Notes under the pieces: generated by a model
The model's database searches: none
What the model saw: the letters and a program-made list of their open reading frames with translations, nothing else
What the model was told of the DNA's origin: nothing
Assembly: GCA_030696455.1 (NCBI GenBank)
Contig: JAUYSH010000116.1
Location: forward strand, 1 to 64,000
Source: Elusimicrobiota bacterium
GTDB lineage: Bacteria > Elusimicrobiota > Elusimicrobia > UBA1565 > UBA9628
Direction of reading: 5' to 3'
DNA length: 64,000 nucleotides
Shown here: positions 11,925 through 20,503 of the stretch, one piece after another
Position numbering within the stretch: the stretch's first letter is position 1
How the letters are laid out: each line of letters starts with the position of its first letter
Translations under genes and position numbers: made by a program

Positions 11925-13683
11925 GGCCGGTCTGCACGCGCCACAAGTCCGCGTAAGGCCCCGCCCGCCCGCTCAGCTCGGCGTGGGTGCCTTCCTCCAC
12001 GATCTTGCCGTCCTCGAGGACGAAGATGCGGTGCGCCTTGACGATGGTCGACAGGCGGTGGGCCACCATCACGGTCGTGCGTCCGACGACGAGCTTATCC
12101 AGGCTCTTCTGGATCGCGGCCTCGGTTTCGTTGTCCACGGCCGAGGTCGCCTCATCCAGGATCAGCACGGGCGGGTCCTTCAGCACGGCCCGCGCGATGG
12201 CGAGGCGCTGCCTCTGGCCGCCGGACAGCTTCTGGCCGCGCTCGCCCACGAGGGTTTCGTATCCCTGGGGCAAAGCCGTCAGGAACTCATGCGCCTCGGC
12301 CGTCCGTGCCGCGGCCTCGATGGCGGGCAGGCCTTTCTCGGGGTCACCGTAAGAAATATTCTCCTTCGCCGTTCCATGAAACAAGAACGTGTCCTGGCTC
12401 ACGAAGCCGATGGCGCGCCGCAGGTCCCGGGGGTCGAAGCTGCGTATGTCCTGGCCATCGAGCAGGATCCTCCCTTCGCTGGGGTCATAGAAGCGCAGCA
12501 GGAGCTTGGTCAACGTGGTCTTGCCCGACCCGGTGGCCCCGACGAAGGCGGCCGTCGTCCCGGCGGGGATGGTCAGGTTCACGTTCTTCAGGGCGGGCAG
12601 GCGCCCGGGATAGGAGAATCCGACTCCTTCGAAACGGATCTCGCCTTTGACGGCGGCGCGGGGCAGGGGCTTGCCTCCGTGCCCGAGGGTGATCGGCGTC
12701 TCGAGGAGGTCGAGCACCCTTGCGGTCGAGGCCATCGCGCGCTGATACAGGTCCACGGTCTCGGCCAGGCCGGTGAGCGGCCACAGGAGCCGCTGGGTCA
12801 GGAACACGAGCACTGAGAATGACCCGACGGTGATTGTCCCGGCGAGCGCCATCTTCCCGCCGACGACGAGGGTCGCGAGGAAGCCGGCCAGGATGGCCAT
12901 GCGGATGATGGGAATAAAGGCGGCGCTCACCTGAATGGCCTTCGTATTGGCCGCCGTATAGGCCAGGCTCTCTCCTTCTATCGCCTTGAGCTCGCGCTCC
13001 TCGGCGGTGAAGCTCTTCATGGTGGCGATGCCGGACAGGTTGATCGACAGGCGCGCGGCGATGATGGCGGCCTGCTCGCGCACGCCGGCGTATAGGGGCT
13101 CGACGCGGAACTGGTAGAAGAAGGCGCCGGCCAGGATGAAGGGGATGGGGAGCATGGCGAGGACGGCGACCTTCGGGGCGAGATAGAAGAAGACGGCGCC
13201 GACCAGGACCACGGTCGAGAGGACTTGGATGAGCATGTTGGCGCCGCCGTTCAAGAAGCGCTCGAGCTGGTTGATGTCGTCATTCAGGGTAGCGGTCAGG
13301 CCGCCGGTGCTGCGGTCCTCGAAAAAGGCCATGTCGAGCTTTTGGACATGGGCGTAGGCGTCCAGGCGCAGTTCGTGCTGGACGGTTTGGGCGAGGCCGC
13401 GCCAGCGGACTTCGTACAGGTACTCGAAGGTCGATTCGAGGACCCAGATCACGAGGGTGGCGGCGGCGAGAATCAGGAGCTGGTGGACGCGGTCGGGGTA
13501 GCCGAGCTTGGCGACGACGGATTGGGGGCCGGAGCCGACGACGTCGACGGCCATGCCGATGAGGATTTCGGGGGCGATGTCGAAGAGCTTATTGAGGAAG
13601 GAGAAGACAGTGGCGAGGGTGATGGTGCGGCGGTGGGGGGAGGCGTAGGAGAGGAGGCGGCGGAGGGGGGAGGGGCGGGACAC
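11896..13683 (-). CDS. ABC exporter, fused permease and ATPase (MsbA-like half transporter)
   Basis: A 595-residue half transporter. The first 310 or so residues form the six-helix type I exporter membrane domain. The ATPase domain follows, with Walker A GATGSGKTT near residue 384, the Q-loop FVSQDTFLF, signature LSGGQRQRLAIARA near 489, Walker B VLILDEATSAVD near 508, and the His switch VAHRLS. It should work as a homodimer exporting lipid or drug-like substrates across the inner membrane; the substrate cannot be read from sequence. The GTG start at 13683 follows a TAGAAT element by 5 nt. The defence-like island lies directly upstream on the same strand. Confidence 0.92.
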   Translation of the reverse strand: MSRPSPLRRLLSYASPHRRTITLATVFSFLNKLFDIAPEILIGMAVDVVGSGPQSVVAKLGYPDRVHQLLILAAATLVIWVLESTFEYLYEVRWRGLAQTVQHELRLDAYAHVQKLDMAFFEDRSTGGLTATLNDDINQLERFLNGGANMLIQVLSTVVLVGAVFFYLAPKVAVLAMLPIPFILAGAFFYQFRVEPLYAGVREQAAIIAARLSINLSGIATMKSFTAEERELKAIEGESLAYTAANTKAIQVSAAFIPIIRMAILAGFLATLVVGGKMALAGTITVGSFSVLVFLTQRLLWPLTGLAETVDLYQRAMASTARVLDLLETPITLGHGGKPLPRAAVKGEIRFEGVGFSYPGRLPALKNVNLTIPAGTTAAFVGATGSGKTTLTKLLLRFYDPSEGRILLDGQDIRSFDPRDLRRAIGFVSQDTFLFHGTAKENISYGDPEKGLPAIEAAARTAEAHEFLTALPQGYETLVGERGQKLSGGQRQRLAIARAVLKDPPVLILDEATSAVDNETEAAIQKSLDKLVVGRTTVMVAHRLSTIVKAHRIFVLEDGKIVEEGTHAELSGRAGPYADLWRVQTGLNAPEAGSR

Positions 13684-13694: not shown

Positions 13695-13716
13695 TGAAAC
13701 AGAGGTCTTACTTGCT

Positions 13717-14730
13717 CTAGGATGGCAATCTGTCACGCAGAACAGCTTTTTCCGCTGCCGCGCTTCTAATTCCCAAAAGCAAAAGTCGAACCGCAATCGC
13801 CTCTTCGGAGACCTCATCGATTATCTTAATTAGATTCGGAACCCTAAGTGCTGCCTCTTCGATTTTTCCGCTTCCTTGAAGAAGTGCAATCTTTGCTACT
13901 GAAAGACGAATTACCCGCTTCTTTTTCGAGGGCATTCGTGAAACTCGAAGCCATAAATCACAGCGAATCATTAGATAGTCGCGGCAAGTCCTTCGATCCA
14001 ATAGGCGATGCATGCGACCTACTGTAAAGGAGGCCTCTGCAAAGTTGCCATCAACACAGGAATCTACCGCCGAATCCAGAAGAGATTCGATTATCGTTCG
14101 AGGATCTTCCGGGATAGCGCCTGACCCCATTAGTGGCGGTCGAGTGCACAGTGGAATATCATTTGCTACAAGGACGGCATTGAACATAGATATCGAACAA
14201 AGGCGCCAGATCTGGAAAGCTTGCTCAATCCGGAATCCAGGGATAACAGCCTGAGGATGCATTTCCTGAAACTGCTTGAACGTTGAAAGAACTGCATCAC
14301 TAAGATAGTAGAGATCATCGTCGATGAGATTTCGACGATGGGCATCAATTGCTAAGGCGCCAAAGAGCGAAACCATGGTGTCGATCTTCTCTCCACCCTC
14401 CGAATCCATGGGTAGGCTCATGTCGGGTGCTTGATTGAATCCTTGATGAATGCCTTTGTGGCAGGCTTGGCAGAGAGTGATTCCATTACCTGTTTGAAAC
14501 TGAGCTTGTGGGAGAAAGCTTTTTCTGCAAATATGGTGCGCCGAAAGTTTGGTTCGGCCTTCACAAAGCACGCAGCGATTTGCATCGCGTGCGCGGATCA
14601 GGCGGCTCCAGTTGGCTAGGCAAGTTTTCCTAGAGCTGCCATAAGTCGACAAGAACAGTCTCTCGGCCGCCGACTTTAAAGATTGACTAGTGGGCCCCAT
14701 GTCGTCATGTTGACTTCCAGGAATTTGCAT
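13717..14730 (-). CDS. HNH endonuclease-type protein of the defence-like island
   Basis: A protein of about 337 residues with an HNH/Cys4 zinc nuclease module near the N-terminus: CVLC, LSAHHI, then NGITLCQACHKGIH. The two CxxC pairs bind structural zinc; the HH pair and the final His are the expected metal and catalytic ligands. The remaining 230 residues are helical and unrecognised. Start is uncertain: ATG at 14730 (used here) overlaps the previous gene, ATG at 14700 would begin just after its stop, and neither has a clear ribosome-binding site. It is the last gene of the five-gene leftward operon and a plausible DNA-cleaving effector. GC content is lower than outside the island. Confidence 0.75.
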   Translation of the reverse strand: MQIPGSQHDDMGPTSQSLKSAAERLFLSTYGSSRKTCLANWSRLIRARDANRCVLCEGRTKLSAHHICRKSFLPQAQFQTGNGITLCQACHKGIHQGFNQAPDMSLPMDSEGGEKIDTMVSLFGALAIDAHRRNLIDDDLYYLSDAVLSTFKQFQEMHPQAVIPGFRIEQAFQIWRLCSISMFNAVLVANDIPLCTRPPLMGSGAIPEDPRTIIESLLDSAVDSCVDGNFAEASFTVGRMHRLLDRRTCRDYLMIRCDLWLRVSRMPSKKKRVIRLSVAKIALLQGSGKIEEAALRVPNLIKIIDEVSEEAIAVRLLLLGIRSAAAEKAVLRDRLPS

Positions 14731-15400
14731 GGGCCCAGAAATTATGAATTTCCGAGGGCGTAACAACGTTTATCCAATGGCCCCCATATAGACTTACCAG
14801 GAGACAAATTAATAGCCCGACGTAATCATTTGCCGGCAAAGGAAAGGACGGTTGCGTGGTAGGAATCCATGATGGACAATTAATATATGGGAGAGGTGCA
14901 TCACCAGGGCCGTCGTATGTGACGCAGAGTTGTGCATGTTGAAAGTCGTGGCTAGCTACACTCCCTGTTTTGCCCGCGGGGTGTCCTGTTTCAAATCGAT
15001 ATCCGAAGGCGTGCAATTTCTCATCATGGACCGTAACGAGATGGAGCCCGAGTTTGACCTCCTCCTTTCCCTTGAAAGAGTATCGGAATGACAGTATGGG
15101 GATAAATGCAGAATTTTTGTCTAGAGGGGGCAAGTACAAGAATCGATTGCCCGCATAGGAATTCGCTAGGAGCTGAGTATCCTTGGGTAGGAATTTCTCC
15201 AGCGATTGATAATCTAAGGGGCCAAAATGGGATTGCGCTGCGATAAGAATGTCAGACACGCCTGCAGGGAGGGTTCCCTTCCAGCGCGAATTTTGGGTTT
15301 GCCAGAGCGACTTCAAGAGATCACAAAATGTTTTAGAGCGGTGATCCAGCGGCGATTTTGTTTTTGAAGTTTTAGCTGGCATACCGGGCGTGTGGAGCAT
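14705..15400 (-). CDS. Unknown protein of the defence-like island
   Basis: A 231-residue soluble protein with no motif I recognise. It is rich in aromatic residues, with a Lys-rich N-terminus (KTSKTKSPLDHRSK) and a beta-rich middle (FIPILSFRYSFKGKEEVKLGLHLVTVHDEKLHAFGYRFE). It overlaps the end of the receiver-domain gene (alternative ATG at 15382) and its stop lies at the start of the HNH gene, so it belongs to the operon. A role as adaptor or nuclease partner is possible, but nothing in the sequence shows it. Confidence 0.7.
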   Translation of the reverse strand: MLHTPGMPAKTSKTKSPLDHRSKTFCDLLKSLWQTQNSRWKGTLPAGVSDILIAAQSHFGPLDYQSLEKFLPKDTQLLANSYAGNRFLYLPPLDKNSAFIPILSFRYSFKGKEEVKLGLHLVTVHDEKLHAFGYRFETGHPAGKTGSVASHDFQHAQLCVTYDGPGDAPLPYINCPSWIPTTQPSFPLPANDYVGLLICLLVSLYGGHWINVVTPSEIHNFWAHANSWKST

Positions 15401-16562
15401 AAATCACATCGCCTACCGGCGACACATATCTCCGGGCATAGGGAGAATCCGTTTCCGAGATAAATTCCTTCGATTTAGATTTATCGACGAATCTGCTGCG
15501 ATCCTCTGCGAAAACGAAGGATGGCAAAGTCGTCTTCCATGGCTCAGCTACTTCTGGTATGGCGGAGTTGTTGGATATTCCTTTCCAAAACCACGCGGGC
15601 CTCGACAACCAGTGCGATTTGGTGAATCGGTGGGCCTCAACTGAAGAATGCTTGATTCCAAGGGAAGAAAGGTTGGACGTTCGGGCCGCGAGCAAGTCCC
15701 ATGATTTCAAACGATTTGCCGGTTTGGTGAGCAGGCTTGGATAGCGCCAAACAAGATGCGGGGCGTCAACGAGAATGTCCTGACCTTGTAAAACCAGGGA
15801 TTCGAGCCATTTCGACACTCGTGCGGCTGCAATCCGTGCGATCACCTCCGGAGGTGCCTTTCTGGCTTTTTCATCCTTGCCACGCAGGCCATTCAGGAAG
15901 GCAACTTTGCGAAATGTTACTGAATGCACATCCTCAAGAAGAAATTCAGCAACGCTTCTTGAGAAAGAGTCGACAACATCTCTAGGGAATCCCAGAAAGT
16001 CGCAGATCGGCTTGTCTAGATTAGCTTCGGCATCTTGTACCTGGCGCTCGAAGGAAGTCCAATGATCGGATAATGAGGGCCATGTCCATGGATGAAACTC
16101 GGACGAACCCAACCCCCAGAGCGCTGAATTGGCGAGTTGGACAGTAGGAATATGAAGATCAGCGAAGGAGTCGGGGTGATCCCTCAATGTGAGATCGAAC
16201 CGATTCCCGGGTTCGAAATTTAAACCGACTATATAGCCGCAAGTCGAAAAGCAACGGACAAGATAAGAAACCTCCTCGCCGGTGATATATAATTTTTCAC
16301 CTAAAATTCCGACGAGATCGTAATCCACAAGGAGTACAGACGCGTTGTCGAAAATAGATTTATTCTTCCAGGGCTTGCCGGCCCGGAATAATTCCTGGCG
16401 ATGGCGCAGGATTCCGAGTTCGTTGGCGAATTGTGCAGAATCGACAGGAACTACATCGGAAAATAGTTTCTTGGATAGCTTTAGCTTCTTAAGCTTGCGT
16501 GCCCACTGATTGACAAGCAGAGTCTCGTCATCCAGGACTAAAATATTTTTTGGGATCATCAT
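15372..16562 (-). CDS. Receiver-domain protein with a large unknown C-terminal region
   Basis: A 396-residue protein. Residues 1-130 look like a response-regulator receiver: NILVLDDE gives the acidic pair D11-D12, and VLLVDYDLVG gives a candidate phosphoacceptor D80. The remaining 260 residues match no known output domain. Start taken at 16562: the ATG overlaps the kinase stop by 4 nt and has GGAGG about 9 nt upstream. It directly follows the GHKL/histidine-kinase gene, so it is the obvious phosphotransfer partner. Odd points are the long insert between the acidic pair and D80 and the lack of a DNA-binding motif, which suggest an effector or scaffold rather than a transcription factor. Confidence 0.75.
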   Translation of the reverse strand: MMIPKNILVLDDETLLVNQWARKLKKLKLSKKLFSDVVPVDSAQFANELGILRHRQELFRAGKPWKNKSIFDNASVLLVDYDLVGILGEKLYITGEEVSYLVRCFSTCGYIVGLNFEPGNRFDLTLRDHPDSFADLHIPTVQLANSALWGLGSSEFHPWTWPSLSDHWTSFERQVQDAEANLDKPICDFLGFPRDVVDSFSRSVAEFLLEDVHSVTFRKVAFLNGLRGKDEKARKAPPEVIARIAAARVSKWLESLVLQGQDILVDAPHLVWRYPSLLTKPANRLKSWDLLAARTSNLSSLGIKHSSVEAHRFTKSHWLSRPAWFWKGISNNSAIPEVAEPWKTTLPSFVFAEDRSRFVDKSKSKEFISETDSPYARRYVSPVGDVIYAPHARYAS

Positions 16563-18670
16563 TCCTGCTCCCTCCACGCCAAACGAAAGGCGGTGTTGTA
16601 GCCGCGATCCGGGCTGACAAATCCAACTTCGCAGCCCAAGTTGCCTGCAACGAGCTTTACAATCGTTAGTCCAAGGCCAGTTCCGCCATATCCGAGGGCC
16701 TGGCGCTCGTGAGATATTGCGGCCCCGCGCGCGAAGGGTTCAAACAGCTTCTCTGCGCCTGGAAGTTTTACGCCGCAGCCACTGTCTTCAACAAGCAACT
16801 CTCTTGTCTTTCCAATAGAGCGAGATCTAATTCGGATCCTTTTATTGTCGCTATCGAGGATTGCGTTGAAAGCGTTGATAAAAACATTCTGAAAGACGGC
16901 AGTCCACTCTGCAAAGGAACCCTTTGGGAGCAGAAGATCTTCGTCGGTGCCCTCGATATCGACGATAGTTCCTCGTGCGAGTGTTTTTGTTTGATTGCGA
17001 ACGTCGTCTAAGACTTGCCTGGCATTAAGGCGCGATCTTTGCGAACGGTTTTCTTCGACGGCCAAGTAGGTGAATAGTGATTGTGTGTCTTTGGCCCTTC
17101 TAACCCAGCTAGAAAGCTGGGATTTCAGATCAGCGAGCTGGAGGCGTAGCGAGGGTGCCTTTTGCTCGATAGCGGACACTTCTTCGATAATCCCATCGAT
17201 GGCACTAAGTTGTTTTTGTAGTTCATGTTGATAGGCGAGGGTCGAAATTCCAGCGGTTGCGAGCGGCCCGAGCAAGGCCATTCGGTTATCGTAGGCCTGA
17301 GCCTCCTTTTCGGCTGCATTAACCACGTCCTTAATCGAGATGCTGAGTGCTACGTATGTCTTGGGCGCAATTTGATTCCGGAATGACTCCAAGACGGATT
17401 GGAGTCGAACCGCCTTGTCCGATGTCGGTTCGATCTCTGCTTCGACTTCGCGAATTTCAGAAGCTCGACGAGCTTCTTCCATTGCGTAATAGTCAATCGC
17501 CCAACGAAGCATGTAGACCAAATCCTCGTAAGCCTTGCCTTGGCCCAGGCGATCGCGAGTAATCTGAATTGACAGGCTTCGCTCCGTGGCCGTATTTACA
17601 TTTACAACACCGAAGATTCGGCCTAGTGTGGGGAGGAAATTCATTCCACGATCTACGTGCAGGTCGGCTGGGAGAAGCTTGGAATTCCCTAAGCGGTGAG
17701 AGTGATCGGCCTCAATTCGTAGCCAGTCGCTTTGTGCTGTACCGTAATAGGGAAGACGGAAGCCGGCATCATAAACGTGAACCCCGCCGTATTCTTTGAA
17801 GTAATCACGTGCGTCCTTTACGCGGATGCCGTGAGGCTGCCTTTTCTCAAGGTGATAGATGCGAATTTCGAAATCTCCGCCAAGGAGCTTGGAGTCCGGA
17901 ATCCTGTATTGAACTGCTACGGGACGCTCGCCTGCGAACTCTATCGAGAGATCAACCTTCCCATTAGTATTCCGCCCGACCAATCTTGCATTCCATATAT
18001 CAACAATTGCGCGAATCTGCCGTTCGAAAGTTTTTGCAAAGGCGTGTTCGGGGCTGGTAAATACAATCTTGAAATCGGCCTTGCTGCTTGCATGTGCAGG
18101 ACGATGAAATGGGGGCTGCAACCACCATATTTCTTTGGCGAGACCTCGGAAATCGTCAGTGGTCCACTTGTGGCGTAATCCTTCAAGACGAATAATTGTA
18201 CCGGTCTCTTTAAGGGCGCGGGATACGGGTGCGTAGTGGACCTTGGCGTGGGTCAGATCGCCGGCACTTACTGCGCGTTCCCAATCGACTTGGGCGCTGA
18301 GGCCATCCTTCGCTCCTCTTGGGATCGTAGTCAGTAGAAGGCGTTTTGCCAGAAACTGAACCGCGAGCCTTCCGACTCCTTTTGATCCCGTGAGAGGCCG
18401 CCCATGGACGCGCGAATGCGCCTCGCGTCCCTTATGCGGGGATCCAATTCGCATCCAGAAATCGCGAAATTGCTCAAAGTCCATCCCCGTCCCGTTATCT
18501 GAGACTGAAATCGCGTCGGAATTCGGGTCGAAAGTGATTTCAACCCTGGTTGCATCAGCGTCGTAGCTGTTCTTAATCAATTCGGCTAGCGCGATGTGCG
18601 GCTTCCCGACGAGGCGTTCGCCGAGTTCCTTTAGCAGTGCTGAATCGACGGTAAAATTAATTGATTCCAT
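16559..18670 (-). CDS. Double GHKL ATPase with a histidine-kinase module
   Basis: A 703-residue protein. The N-terminus is a MutL/Hsp90/MORC-like GHKL ATPase: ELIKNSYDADAT (about residues 30-41), DNGTGMD, and GSKGVGRLA. The middle is followed by a coiled-coil with an H-box-like LAYQHELQKQL carrying His482. The C-terminus is a second, histidine-kinase-type ATPase: NVFINAFNAIL near 598, VEDSGCGV, and GGTGLGLTIVKL. There are no membrane segments, so it is cytoplasmic. I infer that the N-terminal ATPase senses DNA or damage and the C-terminal kinase signals to the adjacent receiver protein. GHKL ATPases linked to restriction-modification operons are known; this double arrangement I do not recall as characterised. 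Confidence 0.85.
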   Translation of the reverse strand: MESINFTVDSALLKELGERLVGKPHIALAELIKNSYDADATRVEITFDPNSDAISVSDNGTGMDFEQFRDFWMRIGSPHKGREAHSRVHGRPLTGSKGVGRLAVQFLAKRLLLTTIPRGAKDGLSAQVDWERAVSAGDLTHAKVHYAPVSRALKETGTIIRLEGLRHKWTTDDFRGLAKEIWWLQPPFHRPAHASSKADFKIVFTSPEHAFAKTFERQIRAIVDIWNARLVGRNTNGKVDLSIEFAGERPVAVQYRIPDSKLLGGDFEIRIYHLEKRQPHGIRVKDARDYFKEYGGVHVYDAGFRLPYYGTAQSDWLRIEADHSHRLGNSKLLPADLHVDRGMNFLPTLGRIFGVVNVNTATERSLSIQITRDRLGQGKAYEDLVYMLRWAIDYYAMEEARRASEIREVEAEIEPTSDKAVRLQSVLESFRNQIAPKTYVALSISIKDVVNAAEKEAQAYDNRMALLGPLATAGISTLAYQHELQKQLSAIDGIIEEVSAIEQKAPSLRLQLADLKSQLSSWVRRAKDTQSLFTYLAVEENRSQRSRLNARQVLDDVRNQTKTLARGTIVDIEGTDEDLLLPKGSFAEWTAVFQNVFINAFNAILDSDNKRIRIRSRSIGKTRELLVEDSGCGVKLPGAEKLFEPFARGAAISHERQALGYGGTGLGLTIVKLVAGNLGCEVGFVSPDRGYNTAFRLAWREQE

Positions 18671-18676
18671 TCGTGG

Positions 18677-20398
18677 TTAAGCGAGTTGCGGCAATCGATT
18701 CTTAATCGAGTCAGAGGTTTCAGGCAGTGTCATGATCTTCCTGTCATTGGCATCGGCGGCGATCAATTCAAGAGTCAGCACATATGACAATTTCATGGGT
18801 ACTGCATTGCCAATCATCTGGCATAGTTCTGCGCGTTTTCTTACGCTGCTGAAGTCGAAATAATCAGGGAAATATTGAATTCGGGCGGCCTCGTGCGGTG
18901 TAAGCGTTCGTAGTCGGCTGGGATGGATGTACCGCCCTTGGCCGGGAGAACCAAAGCCGCTAGTGATTGTTTGTGCGGGCTCTAAATAGCTCAGCCGACC
19001 GTACATTGATTTATATGAGTGTTTGTCGTTCTGATGGCACTTTGGCCGCATTTTATTGGGGAGATCAATAAGCGAATGCTTGCGAAGGTAATTGATGCGT
19101 TCGATGTTCTTCGGGCTGAGTTTTGCCGCCGCTTGGAAAATATCAGTCCCCTTCGTGTTTGCTAAATCCCCGATTGCCCACTTTACTGTACGATCCTTCT
19201 GGCAATGGTATCTCCGGATAACTTGCGGGATGTTCAACTTGATTACTTTTGATGCAACCAGAACATGGCGACGACGGCGTTGCGGTACGCCTAATGACGT
19301 CAAATCTACGATGTCCTGGGTGACATGATAGCCCAATGACTCAAGATGGGCCTTTGTCTTTGAAACAGCATATTCCTTTCCATGCACGACGCCCGGAACG
19401 TTCTCAATCACTACATGGCGCGGTTTTACCACCTCGACGAACCTTGCAACTCGATTGTAAAGATTATTGCGTGAATCCCTGCGGCGCGTATGGTTGTTCA
19501 AGTCCGAATATCCTTGGCATGGAGGTCCGGCCAGTAGGAGGTCCGGTGTGCTCAGTGATGCTGCAAGTGTTTGTTCGACTTTGGTGGGGGCGGCTCCCAA
19601 TTCTCCGTCCAATAGAAGAACGATATCTTTGTCGAATGTAGACAGCGGCGAAAAATTGTCCTTGAAGACAGCAAGACTTGCCGTATTCATGTCTGCCGCG
19701 AGTAGAGATACGAATTGTCGGCCAGCTGCTCGGCAGGCCTCTGCGGCGCCCAAAGAAAATCCTCCGCAACCGCTAAAAAGGTCAACTGTCGTGAAGGGCG
19801 CGCCCGTCGGAGTAGGCGGGACATTCTTGGACTGAAGAAGCGCCTGTTCAAATACATCTCGCCCGTCTCCGGAAAGCAATCTTGTTGGCAGCGGCAGACG
19901 GGTACTGATGCCGGATCCAATAGAAATCCGTCGTGAAATTGAAGTCCGGTCCAGGATGAAAGTTTCACGAGGCGGAGTGCGTTGCTTTGCAAGAAATTGT
20001 GTTATCGTGCGCTGAAGATCTACAAGTCGATTGGTTTCACATTCCCATATGCAAAGAACATCGAATCCTCTATGGCAAAGCTCTCGTTCCTTCCGTGCGT
20101 CGCGTGCTTTGTTGGCAAGAAACTTCCTTTTCCAGAATCTGATGTTCGTCTTCGGGATGGTCGATTTAGCGCAGCCGTCATGCGCATGCCAGAAACACCC
20201 ATGAACGAAAATGGCCCACCGTTGTCGCCTATTAACAATATCGGGGGTGCCTGGCAATCCTTTTCCCAATATTGAGAAGCTGGTGCCCATTGATTTGAGC
20301 AACCGGCAGACGCTTAGTTCCGGAGCGGTAGAGGACCGCCTGACCCCCCTCATTAGGCGGGAGCGTTCAGGAGTAACACGGTGGCTTACTTGTCGCAA
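18677..20398 (-). CDS. Vsr endonuclease fused to a C5-cytosine DNA methyltransferase
   Basis: A 573-residue fusion. Residues 1-145 are a very-short-patch-repair-type endonuclease: GTPDIV with catalytic D53, then FVHGCFWHAHDGC (H66, C68, H71, H73, C76), and LCIWECET. After a 50-residue linker, a complete 5-methylcytosine methyltransferase follows: motif I DLFSGCGGFS, motif IV GPPCQGYS with nucleophile C294, motif VI ENVPGV, motif VIII PQRRRRHVLVAS and motif X MIGNAVP. The enzyme would methylate cytosine and nick mismatches arising from deamination, or act as a restriction-type pair. The start is a TTG, the only one that keeps the Vsr N-terminus; upstream the frame meets a stop. First gene of the island operon, 6 bp before the kinase. 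Confidence 0.92.
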   Translation of the reverse strand: MRQVSHRVTPERSRLMRGVRRSSTAPELSVCRLLKSMGTSFSILGKGLPGTPDIVNRRQRWAIFVHGCFWHAHDGCAKSTIPKTNIRFWKRKFLANKARDARKERELCHRGFDVLCIWECETNRLVDLQRTITQFLAKQRTPPRETFILDRTSISRRISIGSGISTRLPLPTRLLSGDGRDVFEQALLQSKNVPPTPTGAPFTTVDLFSGCGGFSLGAAEACRAAGRQFVSLLAADMNTASLAVFKDNFSPLSTFDKDIVLLLDGELGAAPTKVEQTLAASLSTPDLLLAGPPCQGYSDLNNHTRRRDSRNNLYNRVARFVEVVKPRHVVIENVPGVVHGKEYAVSKTKAHLESLGYHVTQDIVDLTSLGVPQRRRRHVLVASKVIKLNIPQVIRRYHCQKDRTVKWAIGDLANTKGTDIFQAAAKLSPKNIERINYLRKHSLIDLPNKMRPKCHQNDKHSYKSMYGRLSYLEPAQTITSGFGSPGQGRYIHPSRLRTLTPHEAARIQYFPDYFDFSSVRKRAELCQMIGNAVPMKLSYVLTLELIAADANDRKIMTLPETSDSIKNRLPQLA

Positions 20399-20451
20399 TG
20401 GGTGTTTAGCGTTCTAAGCAAATTTATCCATTTTTTTGCTCTGAGGCATAC

Positions 20452-20489
20452 AAAAAAACAAGCCCCAGCACAGCAGCACTGGGGCTTGT
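20452..20489 (-). terminator. Rho-independent terminator of ahcY
   Basis: An 11-bp stem (ACAAGCCCCAG with CTGGGGCTTGT, 20458-20489), a 10-nt loop, then seven Ts on the minus strand. It lies just after the ahcY stop and also insulates the defence-like operon from read-through. Confidence 0.9.
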
Positions 20490-20503
20490 CTCTTTAAACG
20501 GCT

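Follow-up and report, generated by a model that had tools for sequence, protein, structure and literature searches.

A predicted single-chain Vsr endonuclease–C5 methyltransferase in a probable two-component-like restriction/defence cassette acquired horizontally

The window analysed here, a stretch of 64,000 nucleotides from an Elusimicrobiota bacterium, carries a gene in which a Vsr endonuclease and a C5 cytosine methyltransferase share one polypeptide. Judged from its sequence, this is a genuine single-chain protein, a real and rare fusion, and it probably provides modification for a two-component-like restriction/defence cassette that was acquired horizontally and in which Vsr would act as a tethered repair enzyme. 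A Vsr tied to a methyltransferase in this way makes it possible to study, within one protein, how cells compensate for the mutability of 5-methylcytosine. The moderate interest of the fusion comes from its recurrence in both domain orders and in different defence systems, which suggests that selection has repeatedly kept the two functions linked. The gene and its parts are as follows.

18677..20398, minus strand: fused Vsr endonuclease–C5 cytosine methyltransferase gene, 573 amino acids, TTG start
20006..20368, minus strand: Vsr domain, amino acids 11-131, with E27, D53, H66 and H71 and the zinc ligands C68, H73, C76 and C119 present
19808..20005, minus strand: junction, amino acids 132-197, passing from the end of the Vsr helix into the N-terminal extension of the methyltransferase family
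18761..19807, minus strand: C5 methyltransferase domain, amino acids 198-546, with catalytic Cys294

From 20398 to 18677 the minus strand holds a single open frame of 573 amino acids, and the plus strand is stop-rich here; the coordinates in the original prediction were thus correct, and the strand, which it left unstated, is minus. Its claim of two enzymes in one polypeptide was borne out by the domain searches. Pfam placed Vsr (PF03852) at amino acids 11-74 with an E-value of 4e-18 and 65.4 bits against a cut-off of 27, and DNA_methylase (PF00145) at amino acids 202-543 with an E-value of 3e-49, while the NCBIfam models TIGR00632 (amino acids 11-121, 103.7 bits against a cut-off of 97.85) and TIGR00675 (amino acids 205-537) also scored above their cut-offs. 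In the Vsr of E. coli, residues E25, D51, H64 and H69 are catalytic, and C66, H71, C73 and C117 are the zinc ligands. When the Vsr half was aligned to the E. coli protein (PDB 1CW0; E 3.5e-21), the former four corresponded to E27, D53, H66 and H71, and the latter to C68, H73, C76 and C119. In the other half, the C5 methyltransferase motifs I, IV (PPC), VI (ENV), VIII and X are all there (DLFSGCGG at 206, PPCQG at 292, ENVPG at 332, QRRRR at 373 and GNAVP at 530), and the cysteine of the PPC motif is residue 294. The alignment and this motif also agree with the earlier placement of D53, H66, C68, H71, H73, C76 and C294. Both domains are accordingly predicted to be complete and canonical with their active-site residues intact, and the domain and residue matches are far beyond the level of chance.

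The 5' end of the gene, with its TTG start codon, is uncertain, and no clear ribosome site lies ahead of TTG20398. Upstream and in frame with the fusion there is an ATG at 20431, followed five codons on by a TAG (20416-20414). This stretch (20431-20396, minus strand, 5' of the TTG) reads ATG GAT AAA TTT GCT TAG, is likewise without a clear ribosome site, and may be the remnant of a once longer N-terminus of the fusion or may be due to chance.

An error of assembly or sequencing that merged two adjacent genes, Vsr and then methyltransferase, could also give rise to such a frame. The fused gene does come from a single metagenome-assembled genome, the nearest relatives of each half are mostly separate genes, and tandems of Vsr followed by a methyltransferase are common and often overlapping, with 43 same-strand pairs counted. 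The joint, however, does not look like two genes merged by error, since no stop interrupts it and neither an ATG nor a GTG is available there from which the methyltransferase could start; in-frame ATG and GTG codons are absent from amino acids 90 to 236 altogether. Nor was there at the joint an alternative-frame start with a ribosome site, as there would be for two genes merged by an indel. From the Vsr domain to motif I, TTG174 is the sole codon of a usual start type, and it falls within the N-terminal extension of the methyltransferase. That extension appears to be native because the PADLOC profile MTase_II PDLC03368 (type II methyltransferases) aligns from amino acid 145, with an E-value of 8e-11 on the junction piece, and with TTG174 lying inside it, a complete Vsr would therefore abut a complete methyltransferase. 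The original prediction had named homologues that never occur fused and have a stop codon in the linker as the sign of such an error; instead, independent fusions were found in other genomes, one of them annotated as a single gene on a complete plasmid, and a merger by error is very improbable.

The statement that Vsr and Dcm are usually separate genes held up well in the comparison with relatives. Among the first 184 loci there were 178 Vsr frames, and the only fused one was that of the window (present twice in the set). A screen of open frames with PF03852 was then applied to about 1180 genomes (398 from Pseudomonadota, 336 from the window's own phylum, 247 from Acidobacteriota and 198 from Actinomycetota), with long frames looked at individually, and of 301 Vsr places only three were fused, in both domain orders: the window's and two from Acidobacteriota. 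One of the latter (L185) is a true fusion of 546 amino acids in the order Vsr-methyltransferase, and the other (L186:6814-8622, plus strand) is a true fusion of 603 amino acids in the order methyltransferase-Vsr, located in a DISARM locus with DrmA and DrmB. A fourth fusion (L190:2756-4417, minus strand; WP_163916102.1), of 554 amino acids and also in the order methyltransferase-Vsr, is present on the Mycolicibacterium arabiense plasmid NZ_AP022592.1, where it is annotated as one dcm gene and adjoins the same ATPase, receiver and 231-aa genes that are described for the window below. The profiles match the Vsr half of this protein weakly (E 0.004 for PF03852; E 2e-8 for TIGR00632, which is below cut-off), and that half is degenerate, as the equivalents of D51, H64 and H69 are lost while the domain is kept. 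All three resemble the window's fusion in having both domains in one chain, but their Vsr halves belong to another Vsr clade: in a FastTree tree of Vsr, built from few columns, they formed a set with eight other rows at 98% local support, and the window's Vsr fell outside it. The fusions therefore do not seem, from this tree, to share one origin.

Several other candidates were rejected as fusions. In one (G028/L096) there are several stops between Vsr and methyltransferase, in S. meliloti KH46 (L103) the two are separate ORFs in the same frame, 9 bp apart, and two more (G610/L187 and G1155/L208) are spurious GC-rich extensions of the frame. A 650-aa frame with a C-terminal Vsr at amino acids 545-641 (L009:10017-11966, minus strand) could be a spurious extension as well.

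The surrounding cassette, which the original prediction overlooked, is the more informative context of the fusion. It consists of the fused gene and the four genes listed below it.

13700..20503: inserted cassette, 6.8 kb, five minus-strand genes, the fusion first
16559..18670, minus strand: double GHKL ATPase of paraMORC/HEF_HK type, 703 amino acids; HATPase_c_3 at 25-148, H-box His482, HATPase_c at 592-697
15372..16577, minus strand: receiver-domain (Response_reg_2-like) protein, 401 amino acids; invariant D16, D17 and D85
14705..15400, minus strand: conserved 231-aa protein with the signature RFE...H...HxQ
13717..14766, minus strand: probable HNH endonuclease, 349 amino acids, weak HNH match

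The GC content of the cassette is 50.2%, versus 68.1% around it. In G008, a sister genome from the same genus, both flanks are present at about 86-91% identity, and the equivalents of window positions 13699 and 20504 are joined with 56 bp between them, which marks the cassette as a discrete acquisition of 6.8 kb. It was acquired horizontally, and the empty site in the sister genome is sharply defined. No tRNA or other Rfam families were found in the window, and thus no tRNA-type attachment site for the cassette. Between window positions 13500 and 20700 there were 0 matches to a sigma-70-like promoter versus a shuffle mean of 5.9 (sd 2.5), and the start signals of the cassette may be of another type.

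A core of four genes, encoding the methyltransferase, the double-GHKL ATPase, the receiver protein and the 231-aa protein, recurs in relatives across phyla. Relatives of the system in which Vsr is a separate gene are L005, L021, L056, L117, L120, L141, L191, L194 and L195. Both ATPase domains were present in ten of ten relatives, and the H-box His482 is invariant in the ten. The model of the receiver protein had a pLDDT of 73, and its best PDB matches were mostly receiver domains, with E-values of 0.003 to 0.06 and none below 0.001; the N-terminal part of this 401-aa protein looks like a receiver, and its C-terminal 250 amino acids gave no structural match. The 231-aa protein matched no Pfam or NCBIfam family, and its structural model was poor (pLDDT 57) with no meaningful match, and it was present in every receiver-bearing relative examined. 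Members of this family always occur with the receiver gene (window, L005, L021, L056, L117, L141, L190, L194 and L195). It is a candidate effector, and with it the cassette adds a conserved protein, absent from the family libraries searched, to a two-component-like restriction system. In Pseudomonas sp. 21 the same system includes an HNH protein to which the 349-aa protein is similar (35%). When plasmid and viral sequences were searched with the receiver, the 231-aa protein and the HNH protein, there were few or no matches.

Two-component-like neighbourhoods of HEF_HK and Response_reg_2 with restriction-modification genes have been described by Bellieny-Rabelo et al. (PMC8011034), and paraMORC restriction-modification systems by Iyer et al. 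2008 (PMC2292703). As in the parts of these papers drawn on here, the cassette has a C5 methyltransferase upstream of a protein with HATPase_c_3, H-box and HATPase_c, followed by a receiver gene, and has Vsr and HNH in the neighbourhood. The architecture of HEF_HK (HATPase_c_3, H-box histidine and HATPase_c) is that of the cassette ATPase. Unlike the HEF_HK/Response_reg_2 systems, the cassette has a receiver without a PF19192 match, the additional conserved 231-aa protein, and a Vsr fused to its methyltransferase, a fusion that those parts of PMC8011034 and PMC2292703 do not mention. The PF19191 profile matched four of ten relatives (best 4.5e-5) and not the ATPase of the window, and PF19192 gave no match to the window's receiver and matched one of seven relatives at an E-value of 0.11. 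The cassette would therefore be a restriction/defence-like related branch of the HEF_HK/Response_reg_2 systems, not a formal member. Neither DrmA nor DrmB of DISARM was found among the five cassette proteins, and there is no helicase in the cassette that could correspond to DruE of Druantia; only the methyltransferase resembles a Druantia protein, DruM2 (5e-105). A Druantia II locus on a Rubrobacter marinus plasmid (L104) has a methyltransferase of the same subfamily (45%) in the same gene order, but there Vsr and methyltransferase are two genes with a 4-bp overlap. The familiar Dcm-Vsr pair of E. coli, which carries out very short patch repair, likewise combines a C5 methyltransferase with a Vsr of the same active site (1CW0), but as two genes; in the window there is one polypeptide with Vsr first, a different methyltransferase subfamily, and a defence-like cassette.

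As to the role of the Vsr half, the reading favoured here is that of a repair enzyme. The methyltransferase half would put 5-methylcytosine on host sites, deamination of which would give T:G mismatches, and the Vsr half would nick the T. Tethering would keep writer and repairer together in dose, place and transfer, and restriction would be left to other members of the cassette, with the ATPase gated by a His-Asp relay and the HNH or the 231-aa protein as candidate effector. Beyond the functions of the domains, this mechanism is one that we infer. The earlier idea that fusion ties a predicted mismatch nicking to the methylated site fits the evidence. All of the loci found with P0001 have Vsr, which would make it a fixed component of the system, but those loci were a biased sample; among loci seeded with the ATPase profile, and thus selected independently of Vsr, six distinct systems had the receiver, the 231-aa protein and the methyltransferase, and Vsr was present in three of the six and absent in the others (L216, L217 and L221). 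Vsr is therefore optional and not the core effector. Pairs of Vsr and methyltransferase are also portable, and the methyltransferase subfamily works in other systems as well, as seen in the tandem of the Druantia II locus (L104) and the fusion of the DISARM locus (L186). Work on Caulobacter reports that Vsr and a cytosine methyltransferase are functionally connected there: when a solitary methyltransferase of this kind is lost, a Vsr-dependent DNA damage response follows (PMC12907096), so a tethered Vsr could also make the loss of methylation costly. Since Vsr follows the methyltransferase between systems and has a canonical mismatch active site, it is best read as a very-short-patch repair enzyme for the damage that this methyltransferase causes. 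The decayed Vsr half of the M. arabiense fusion counts against this, as such decay would be surprising in an enzyme that only repairs.

The original prediction had also raised the idea of Vsr as a restriction nuclease regulated by its own methyltransferase. The Vsr half would then cut the unmethylated site as the restriction nuclease of the cassette, in a single-chain restriction-modification enzyme (type IIC-like) that is perhaps gated by the GHKL and receiver proteins. Vsr belongs to the PD-(D/E)XK superfamily, it stands next to receiver genes in published neighbourhoods (PMC8011034), an artificial fusion of restriction and modification genes works (PMC3039593), and defence helicases are fused to Vsr-type nucleases (PMC12458937), where the Vsr domains of the ARMADA helicases have been proposed as active nuclease effectors, so that a defence role of the Vsr half is possible. 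The Vsr-less core systems disfavour this, as do the mismatch-type active site, the separate HNH-like gene of the cassette, and the occurrence of Vsr-methyltransferase pairs in DISARM and Druantia systems that have their own effectors; such a restriction nuclease is thus unlikely. Quite unlikely, too, is a conditional nicking nuclease under a His-Asp phosphorelay, in which one chain would mark self and, on a signal from the ATPase and receiver, attack unmarked DNA. A Vsr half that had given up any nuclease role and served the methyltransferase as a DNA-binding or structural appendage would account for the M. arabiense fusion, where the domain is retained without the equivalents of D51, H64 and H69, but this reading is distinctly improbable for the window's Vsr, in which all catalytic and zinc residues are intact.

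In the window's own genome there is, in addition, a second pair of methyltransferase and GHKL ATPase with a divergent, separate Vsr (L102, C113:8000-26000).
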